Under the pieces are notes generated by a model. The model saw only the letters and a list, made by a program, of their open reading frames with translations. It had not been told where the DNA came from and ran no database searches. Made by a program: the position numbers and the translations under genes. DNA of 64,000 nt from Sandaracinus amylolyticus (GTDB taxonomy: Bacteria; Myxococcota_A; Polyangia; Polyangiales; Sandaracinaceae): contig NZ_CP011125.1 of the NCBI RefSeq assembly GCF_000737325.1, forward strand, positions 186,001-250,000, read 5' to 3'. This document shows positions 21,782-24,954 of the stretch, in pieces (positions within the stretch are counted from its first letter, which is position 1; every line of letters starts with the position of its first letter).

Positions 21782-23389
21782 ATGAGCTTCCGGTTCGGAG
21801 GGCACGAGCTCGACCTCGATCGTCGCGAGCTGCGTCGCGACGGCGCGGTCGTGCACGTCGAGCCGAAGGTGCTGGAGCTGCTGGCGTACCTCGTGGCCCA
21901 TCGTGATCGTGCGGTCGCGAAGCGCGAGCTGCTCGACGCGCTGTGGCCCGACGTCGTCGTCACCGAGGGCTCCCTGCAGCGCACCGTGAGCCTCGCGCGC
22001 GCCGCGGTCGGCGACACGAACGGCGACGTCATCCGCACGCTGCCGCGCTTCGGCTATCGCTTCGTCGCGACGATCGACGCGCGCAGCACGCCTCCGCCCG
22101 AGACCGCGCGCGAGACCGCGAGGAGCACGGTGCGCTGGTCGCGCGCCGGCGACGTGCACGTCGCGTGGCAGGCGCTCGAGCCCGCGCCCGGCGCGGCCCG
22201 CGACGTCGACGTCGTCGTCGTGAACGGCTGGTGCCTGCCGATGAGCGCGTGCCTCGAGCATCCGCGCCTCGCGGCGAGCTTCGCGGCGATGACGCGCTCG
22301 GCGCGCGTGATCCTCTTCGACAAGCGAGGCGTGGGGCTCTCGGATCGCGTGCGCTGCGCGACGCTCGACGAGCGCATGCAGGACCTGCTCTGCGTGCTCG
22401 ACGCCGCGGGCTCTCGTCGCGCGGTCGTGCTCGGCCTGTCGGAGGGCGCGCCGATCGCGATCCTCCTCGCGGCGACGCACCCCGAGCGCGTCGCCGGGCT
22501 CGTGCTCGTCGGTGCGTTCGCGCGCTTCACCGCGTCGAGCGATCACCCCGCGGGATGGAGCGCGCAGCGGCTGCGCGCGCTGCGCGAGTACGTCGCGAGC
22601 GGGTGGGGCGCGGGCGTGACCGCGCGTCAGATCTTCGCGCCCGAGCACGCCACGGGCGACGACGTGCGCGCGTGGAGCGAGAGCGCGGAGCGGCTCGGCG
22701 CGAGCCCGGGCGCGGCGCTCGACCTGCTCGCGATGAACGAGGCGATCGACGCCCGCGGCGTGCTCGGGTGGGTGCACGTGCCGACCACGGTGCTGCACCA
22801 GACCGACGATCGTGTGATCGACGCCGCGAACGGGCGCGCCCTCGCGCGCGCGATCCCCGGCGCGACGCTCATCGAGGTGCCCGGCGAAGATCACGCGTTC
22901 GCGCACCACGCGACCGATCGCCTGCTCGCCGCGATCGACGACGCGGTGAGGCGCGCGCCGGCGCCGGCGGCGCGGCGCTTCCTCGCGACGGTGGTGCACG
23001 CGCGGGTGCCCGCCGATCTGCGCGCGCTCGCACGGGCCTCGCTCGCGGCGCTCGCGCCGCGCGTCGCCGCGCGCGACGACGACGACGAGGTGTGGGCGTG
23101 CTTCGAGGCCGCGGGCACGGCGCTGCGCGCGGCGGCGGCGCTCCACGCCACGTGCGCCGCGCGCGGGGTGACGATCGCGTGCGGGATCGACGCGAGCGAG
23201 ATCGAGCAGGAGGGCACGATCGCGCGCGGACCGGCCCGCGACCGCGCTGCGGTGATCGCGCGCGCTGCTGCCGAGGGCACGACGCGCTGCACCGCGCTCG
23301 TCGGCGCGCTGGTGCACGACGCCGCGGTCACGTTCGTCGCGATCGACGGCGGCGACGAGCGCCTCGTGTGCGCGCGCGGCGAAACCTAA
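21782..23389 (+). CDS. Fusion: OmpR-type winged helix + alpha/beta hydrolase + cyclase-like domain
   Basis: A 535-residue soluble protein joining three modules. Residues 1-97 are a DNA-binding winged helix of the OmpR/CadC type (LDLDRRELRRDGA, LLDALWPDVVVTEGSLQRTV, RTLPRFGYRFVA). Residues about 118-315 are an alpha/beta hydrolase: FDKRGVGLSDRV, the nucleophile elbow VVLGLSEGAPIA (Ser220), TDDRVID with the likely acid, and GEDHAFAHH with the likely His. Residues about 328-535 resemble a class III nucleotide cyclase fold but have lost its metal-binding Asp pair (ATVVHARVPADL sits where LFTDIVGST would be). The last part is therefore probably a dead sensor or a docking domain. It may regulate the downstream methyltransferase and hydrolase genes, which begin 69 bases later. 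Confidence 0.82.
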   Translation: MSFRFGGHELDLDRRELRRDGAVVHVEPKVLELLAYLVAHRDRAVAKRELLDALWPDVVVTEGSLQRTVSLARAAVGDTNGDVIRTLPRFGYRFVATIDARSTPPPETARETARSTVRWSRAGDVHVAWQALEPAPGAARDVDVVVVNGWCLPMSACLEHPRLAASFAAMTRSARVILFDKRGVGLSDRVRCATLDERMQDLLCVLDAAGSRRAVVLGLSEGAPIAILLAATHPERVAGLVLVGAFARFTASSDHPAGWSAQRLRALREYVASGWGAGVTARQIFAPEHATGDDVRAWSESAERLGASPGAALDLLAMNEAIDARGVLGWVHVPTTVLHQTDDRVIDAANGRALARAIPGATLIEVPGEDHAFAHHATDRLLAAIDDAVRRAPAPAARRFLATVVHARVPADLRALARASLAALAPRVAARDDDDEVWACFEAAGTALRAAAALHATCAARGVTIACGIDASEIEQEGTIARGPARDRAAVIARAAAEGTTRCTALVGALVHDAAVTFVAIDGGDERLVCARGET

Positions 23390-23458
23390 GGACGGGCGAA
23401 GAGCTCCATCAGGACCTCGCGGCCTGCCGGGCGAAGGCTGCGCGCTCGGAGGTCCGAC

Positions 23459-24205
23459 ATGGAGATCACGTCCGAGCTCGCACCGGAGCGCGACCGCCGC
23501 TTCGGTGCCGCGCTCTTCGCGCTCGCGTCCTACGGCGCATTCTCGATCTGTTTCACCGCGTCGCTCGTGTTCCTCGCGGGGTGGCGCGCGATGCCGCCCA
23601 CCGCCGCGCTGCCGGCGATCGTCGCCGACGTCGTGCTGCTGCTCGTCTTCGGGCTGCAGCACAGCGTGATGGCGCGGCCCGCGTTCAAGCGCGCGTGGAC
23701 GCGCATCGTCCCGCCGCGCAGCGAGCGCAGCGTGTACGTGCTCGCGTCGTCGATCGCGCTCGGCGCGCTCGTCGTGCTGTGGCAGCCGATCGACGTGATG
23801 GTGTGGGATCTGCGCGGCGCGCCGCGCGTGGTGATGCACGTCGCCTTCGCGCTCGCGTCGCTGCTGGTGCTCGCGTCGTCGTTCGCGCTCGATCACTTCG
23901 AGCTCTTCGGGCTGCGCCAGGCGCTCGCGCCGCTCGGCTGGATGCGCCCCTCGCGCGACGAATTCGTGGAGCGCGGCGCGTATCGGTGGGTGCGCCATCC
24001 GCTGCAGGCGAGCCTGCTCCTCGTCTCGTGGGTCACGCCGTCGATGAGCTTGGACCACTTGGTCTATGCCATCGGGATGACCGCGTACGTCGTGATCGGC
24101 ACCGCGCTCGAGGAGCGCGACCTCGTGCGCGCGCTCGGCGATCGCTATCGCGCGTACCAGGCGCGCGTCGGGCGGTTCTTCCCGCGGATCGGAGGTGGAG
24201 CGTGA
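23459..24205 (+). CDS. mddA: MddA-like methanethiol S-methyltransferase (NnrU/ICMT superfamily)
   Basis: A 248-residue membrane protein with five hydrophobic segments. It resembles MddA, which methylates methanethiol with S-adenosylmethionine to form dimethyl sulfide. Features seen: FGLQHSVMARPAFKRAWTR, IVPPRSERSVYVLASSIAL, DHFELFGLRQALAPLG, the YRWVRHPLQASLLLVSW motif (HPL) and EERDLVRALGDRYRAYQARV. The last two are shared by isoprenylcysteine carboxyl methyltransferase relatives, so the fold is secure and the substrate is inferred. The start is the ATG at 23459 with a CGGAGG site. Its stop overlaps the next gene's GTG (GTGA), so the two are translationally coupled. Confidence 0.68.
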   Translation: MEITSELAPERDRRFGAALFALASYGAFSICFTASLVFLAGWRAMPPTAALPAIVADVVLLLVFGLQHSVMARPAFKRAWTRIVPPRSERSVYVLASSIALGALVVLWQPIDVMVWDLRGAPRVVMHVAFALASLLVLASSFALDHFELFGLRQALAPLGWMRPSRDEFVERGAYRWVRHPLQASLLLVSWVTPSMSLDHLVYAIGMTAYVVIGTALEERDLVRALGDRYRAYQARVGRFFPRIGGGA

Positions 24206-24954
24206 CGCGCGAGCTGGTCGTGATGTGCGGGGACGTCGCGCTGCGCGCCCGCGTGATCGGCGCGCGCGACGTGCGCAGCACCGTCGTGCTCCTGCACGGC
24301 CTCGGTGACGCGAGCCCGACGTGGTGGGAGTGCGGCCTCGCGCAGCGGCTCGCGGCGCATCATCGCGTCGTCGCGCTCGACGCACGCGGCCACGGCGGGA
24401 GCACCCGCCCGCGCGATCCGCGCGCGTACGGCGCGGACCTGCTCGTGCAGGACGTCCTCGCGACGCTCGACGCGCTGGAGATCGAGCGCGCGCACGTCGT
24501 CGGCTACTCGCTCGGCGGGCGCACCGCGCTCGAGCTCGCCGCGCGCGCGCCCGAGCGCGTCGCGTCGCTGGGGATCGGCGGCGCGCACCCGTTCGCCCAG
24601 GACATGCGCGCGATCCGTCACGTCGTGGAGCGCGGCGGCGACGCGTGGCTCGCGGTGATCGCGGCGCGCGCGGGCGCGCTCGATCCGACGTGCGCGGCGC
24701 GCTTGCGCGCGAACGACGGCGCCGTGCTCTCCGCCGCGGCGCGGGATCGCGAGGACGTCTCCACCGCGGTCGCGCGATGGCGCGGGCCCGCGCTGGTGTG
24801 GGTCGGCGAGCACGATCCCATGCGCGCCGACGTCGAGCGCGGCGCGGGCGTGATCGACGCGCGCGTGGTGATCGCGGCGGGCGCCGAGCACTTCGGTGCG
24901 TCACGCGCGCCCGACGCGCTCGACGCGGTGGTCACGTTCCTCGCGGGCGCGTGA
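24202..24954 (+). CDS. Alpha/beta-fold hydrolase
   Basis: A 250-residue cytosolic hydrolase. The oxyanion motif is VVLLHGLGDASPTWW (HG), the early acidic turn is ALDARGHGGSTRP, the nucleophile elbow is VVGYSLGGRTAL (Ser in GYSLGG), an acid candidate is VWVGEHDPM, and the late His is in AGAEHFGAS. This is the complete catalytic triad layout of esterases/lipases of the HG-GxSxG type. The GTG start shares bases with the stop of the MddA-like gene, so both are in one operon. The 3' end abuts the convergent membrane-protein gene with no gap. Substrate not inferable. Confidence 0.85.
   Translation: MTRELVVMCGDVALRARVIGARDVRSTVVLLHGLGDASPTWWECGLAQRLAAHHRVVALDARGHGGSTRPRDPRAYGADLLVQDVLATLDALEIERAHVVGYSLGGRTALELAARAPERVASLGIGGAHPFAQDMRAIRHVVERGGDAWLAVIAARAGALDPTCAARLRANDGAVLSAAARDREDVSTAVARWRGPALVWVGEHDPMRADVERGAGVIDARVVIAAGAEHFGASRAPDALDAVVTFLAGA

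Follow-up and report, generated by a model that had tools for sequence, protein, structure and literature searches.

LipJ (Rv1900c; NF058673; structures 1YBT and 1YBU) of Mycobacterium tuberculosis is composed of an N-terminal alpha/beta hydrolase and, after it, an active class III cyclase homology domain, and contains no winged helix-turn-helix (wHTH) domain. Regulators of the CadC/ToxR type have an N-terminal OmpR-type wHTH joined directly to a sensor part, an arrangement in which Trans_reg_C occurs without a receiver; in CadC, a membrane helix leads to a periplasmic sensor. RsbQ and the plant proteins KAI2 and D14/DAD2, the latter receptors of strigolactone, are alpha/beta hydrolases functioning as signal receptors, and they signal via separate partner proteins. 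The mycobacterial mclx proteins contain a cyclase homology domain and a C-terminal LuxR HTH with AAA/NB-ARC between them (PMC4452763).

The protein described here is encoded in a 64,000-nucleotide stretch of Sandaracinus amylolyticus DNA (the window) and combines features of these systems. It shares with LipJ the order of hydrolase and cyclase fold, LipJ being both the best NCBIfam match and the best structure for the C-terminus, but has an added wHTH and a cyclase predicted to be dead. The direct joining of an N-terminal wHTH to a sensor part is shared with CadC, whereas the sensor part of the window protein would comprise the hydrolase and the pseudocyclase and is apparently cytosolic. RsbQ and D14/DAD2/KAI2 are close in sequence to residues 169–385, although in the window protein the output domain is covalently attached. 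Cyclase homology and a DNA-binding domain are present in one protein as in mclx, for which no hydrolase is described (PMC4452763). No published family of wHTH-hydrolase-cyclase proteins or of pseudocyclases was found in the open-access literature.

The gene is an ATG-started open reading frame of 535 codons at 21782–23389 on the plus strand. Long overlapping reading frames are present on both strands of this GC-rich region; the frame is not a chance one, since full-length orthologs with approximately 41% identity exist. Six genomes from a second family within the same taxonomic order (L054–L057, L084, L085) contain such orthologs, and a seventh ortholog was found in a more distant genome of the same phylum (L058). 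The window protein and the seven orthologs form one clade with support of 100/99 in a careful tree built from hydrolase columns. Pfam matched Trans_reg_C at residues 23–94 and Abhydrolase_1 at 164–372 (E 4e-17), with no match after residue 372. The linker at 99–122 is polar by inspection, and the regulator is apparently soluble. The sequence-only reading had proposed the order wHTH, hydrolase and cyclase-like domain, and this order is borne out by the Pfam, profile and fold evidence.

Table. Features of the wHTH-hydrolase-pseudocyclase gene and its downstream neighbours (positions in the window).
Feature	Position	Strand	Evidence
wHTH - alpha/beta hydrolase - pseudocyclase gene, 535 aa	21782..23389	+	translation; full-length orthologs ~41% identity
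OmpR/CadC-type winged helix (Trans_reg_C), residues 1-98	21782..22075	+	PF00486, E 3.5e-10
LipJ-type alpha/beta hydrolase, residues about 118-390, triad Ser220/Asp343/His371	22133..22951	+	Pfam, NCBIfam, triad columns
Degenerate class III cyclase homology domain, residues 399-535	22976..23386	+	profile, fold and column comparisons
MddA-like (NnrU-fold) methyltransferase	23459..24205	+	NF045656 209.6 bits, cut-off 270
Stand-alone alpha/beta hydrolase	24205..24954	+	Pfam, locus comparison

The Trans_reg_C match scored 40.3 bits against a gathering cut-off of 26.2, identifying the N-terminal domain as an OmpR/CadC-type wHTH, and this is the best-conserved part of the protein (53–60% to the orthologs). 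The nucleophile elbow GLSEGA was located at residues 218–223 with Ser220 as nucleophile, as the earlier reading had stated, and with Asp343 and His371 as partners the triad is complete, as expected of an alpha/beta hydrolase. The top NCBIfam model for this domain was LipJ with a score of 138.4 bits, below the curated cut-off of 800. The Ser-Asp-His triad was retained in 26/26 wHTH-fused proteins, and the Ser nucleophile was lost in 8/14 kinase-fused relatives. The closest solved sequences to residues 169–385 include D14/DAD2, KAI2 and RsbQ alongside ordinary esterases; the latter rank first when structures are compared, and likeness to D14 is common to general esterases as well. A sensor role for the hydrolase is suggested by the receptor-like closest sequences together with the fusion of this domain to several output domains, and an ester or lactone is a plausible guess for the ligand of the pocket.

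Other arrangements of the hydrolase were also observed. The protein encoded at L073:1417-2847 represents the opposite case, in which the cyclase is intact and the hydrolase triad is lost, GIGCGC replacing GxSxG. The S. amylolyticus genome itself encodes a 739-residue fusion of Ser/Thr kinase, globin and alpha/beta hydrolase domains without a cyclase (L002:196-2412, C1:949415 region), with Cys at the position of the Ser nucleophile (GTCDAG); the same order is found in L088, there with a degenerate cyclase. It also encodes an alpha/beta hydrolase joined to a carbon-nitrogen hydrolase (nitrilase-like) domain (L003:604-2574, minus strand, C1:2656400 region).

The cyclase-like part had been placed at residues 328–535; the fold was upheld and the start was not, since residues 328–392 form the end of the hydrolase and contain Asp343 and His371, the cyclase beginning near residue 399. 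Scanned on its own, the C-terminus gave no Pfam cyclase match in the window protein or in four dead orthologs. Relatives without the winged helix have at the same place an intact cyclase with the motifs LFTDIVxST and GDGFxATFDGP, in agreement with the suggested descent from hydrolase-cyclase fusions with an active motif. Alignment with hhalign of six dead domains from the fused set with 13 active cyclases gave 99.7% (E 4e-27) over the full length, and the best match of the six-domain profile in the PDB was 1YBT, the cyclase domain of Rv1900c/LipJ (E 8.4e-12). As a single sequence the window C-terminus gave a weak hhalign result (57%, 1e-4), and an HMM of active cyclases scored it at 18.4 bits. 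The full-length AF2 model was poor at the C-terminus (pLDDT of about 40 at residues 472–535) and the domain was therefore modelled separately, with a pLDDT of 79.8; two active cyclases were part of the input alignment and may bias the model towards a cyclase fold, but the sequence evidence for cyclase homology is independent of it. Searched with Foldseek, this model had 1YBT as the top match (E 7.9e-8), and superposition on 1YBU with VIA-align gave a Z of 17.9 and an rmsd of 2.5 over 134 residues. The profile, hhalign, Foldseek and VIA-align matches establish a class III cyclase fold and, following the hydrolase, the architecture of LipJ.

The first metal column (the Asp of LFTD) is occupied by Arg408 in the window protein. 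The second is occupied by Asp435, the last residue of a DDDD run, and is Gly or a gap in the closest orthologs; the metal Asp pair is thus absent, as the earlier reading had it, despite the Asp at the second column. The columns for the transition-state His/Asn and Arg contain Asp and Val, unlike those of an active class III cyclase. With both pairs lost, the cyclase of the window protein is predicted to be catalytically dead. The window C-terminus is also the most degraded member, with FDGP reading FEAA and HTGE reading DASE, so the role of the domain may be weaker there than in the relatives.

The distribution of these losses was examined across 1752 genome slots covering Myxococcota-like kin, the phylum of L012 (Pseudomonadota) and the phylum of L018 (Acidobacteria), with two further relatives from IMG/VR contigs. 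Sixty-nine cyclase-bearing relatives were counted, the stand-alone protein L155 with a truncated frame being set aside. The metal Asp pair was kept in all 34 stand-alone hydrolase-cyclases and absent from all 35 relatives fused to another output domain, namely a wHTH (20), wHTH and kinase (1), LuxR HTH (8), kinase (3), BTAD (1) or a TolB-like N-terminus (2; assigned by eye, Pfam on L145 reporting the hydrolase alone). Fisher's test of fusion against loss of the pair gave 6e-19 with one truncated stand-alone protein counted against the association and kinship ignored. In a tree from hydrolase columns only, in which some long branches join, each trait changes 7 times (bootstrap 7–7); well-supported branches force at least 6 independent switches, and all six independent pairs were concordant (sign test, p 0.031). 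A later plasmid sample (n = 7) agreed with the pattern, comprising three fused proteins with dead cyclases (L177 and L178 with LuxR, L179 with BTAD) and four intact stand-alone proteins (L185–L188). A further 22 fused proteins contain no cyclase at all, so that some lineages have lost catalysis and others the whole domain; the wHTH-hydrolase L012 is of this kind, and the cyclase domain is therefore dispensable in some lineages.

Proteins with the order hydrolase, pseudocyclase and LuxR HTH are L106, L107, L109–L112, L118, L119, L177 and L178. Those on plasmids are annotated merely as alpha/beta fold hydrolase, and on two plasmids the gene adjoins a gene of the carboxymuconolactone decarboxylase family and an NTF2-like gene.

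The four catalytic columns were retained in only 1/35, 6/35, 0/35 and 3/35 of the fused proteins, while the structural columns F (35/35), P, G and L (34/35 each) were kept, as were most structural columns tested (29–35/35). Among the six same-order orthologs dN/dS was 0.14–0.28 for the dead domain, 0.08–0.18 for the hydrolase and 0.04–0.14 for the wHTH, values to be read with dS near saturation; by this measure purifying selection clearly acts on the dead cyclase, though in relaxed form. Catalysis by class III cyclases requires their domains to pair, forming dimers with shared active sites. Since structural motifs are kept and selection is purifying, the dead cyclase probably serves as a dimerisation or coupling scaffold, and the need of class III domains to pair makes this the most economical reading.

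An unlikely alternative is that the C-terminal part is a functionless, decaying remnant and that the working protein is a wHTH-hydrolase heading towards forms such as L012. The full absence of the cyclase from 22 fused proteins in several lineages, the lack of even FDGP and HTGE in the window copy and a constraint weaker than that on the other domains all favour decay. However, the dN/dS of the domain across the six orthologs, with zero stops, and the structural motifs kept in fused proteins of three phyla, with most of the domain length present, speak against a remnant. Still less probable is a regulatory domain binding ATP, GTP or a cyclic nucleotide and gating the hydrolase or DNA binding. 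Inactive enzyme folds frequently retain ligand binding and the predicted cyclase fold is intact, but the nucleotide-contacting metal and transition-state columns were lost in varied ways and no other conserved pocket was identified. The dimeric nature of class III cyclases, with their shared sites, would also allow the window protein to be half of a heterodimeric cyclase completed by another subunit; because both halves of the site are lost, the transition-state residues as well as the metal pair, we reject this reading, which is highly improbable.

We consider it likely that the window protein controls transcription as a soluble one-component regulator and descends from a hydrolase-cyclase of the LipJ/Rv1900c type. 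Binding or hydrolysis of a small molecule by the hydrolase with its intact triad would be the signal, the cyclase domain would make no cyclic nucleotide and be kept for dimerisation or coupling, and the state of the signal would be read out through DNA binding by the winged helix, a former second-messenger output having become a direct transcriptional one. We infer the sensing, ligand and activity, the dimer role, and the DNA binding and its targets from these comparisons, and a sensor-regulator, the role suggested by the sequence-only reading, is still the most likely function.

Control of the adjacent operon of MddA-like and hydrolase genes, which that reading had also suggested, was not supported. 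When 20 homologous loci were compared, the MddA-like, MscS channel and 141-residue ORF neighbours had no match in any of them. For the downstream hydrolase there was one match besides the family gene itself, approximately 3 kb off in a single locus (L172). Scans yielded no convincing promoter, terminator or repeat, nor a convincing operator at 23390–23458; sigma-70 consensus models are ill-suited to this GC-rich genome. In all six same-order orthologs the gene is flanked by genes for a META/NlpE_C lipoprotein and a 271-residue CxVCG protein, usually with a LytTR regulator upstream. The CxVCG protein (L079:60-872, minus strand, and orthologs) is conserved directly downstream of the regulator in the six genomes and has no Pfam match. 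Since the window neighbours are not conserved at homologous loci, the target genes likely differ between lineages.

Judged from its sequence, the window protein is a LipJ-type hydrolase-cyclase with a replaced output, and the pattern in its relatives exceeds the original finding. We suggest tentatively, as a possibility somewhat short of even, that the LipJ-type hydrolase is a portable sensor and that with each new output (wHTH, LuxR HTH, BTAD or Ser/Thr kinase) catalysis is lost and the cyclase frequently retained as a pseudocyclase that serves for coupling; these proteins would constitute a type of transcription factor not yet described, with a hydrolase as receptor, in principle resembling a plant-type hydrolase receptor joined to its output. 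Among bacterial proteins whose annotation reads just alpha/beta fold hydrolase, many are accordingly predicted to be transcription regulators with a pseudocyclase invisible to Pfam. The family would offer a natural experiment in the conversion of a second-messenger enzyme into a structural signalling part, and sensing by LipJ-type hydrolases would become testable by a simple readout, either DNA binding or reporter expression.
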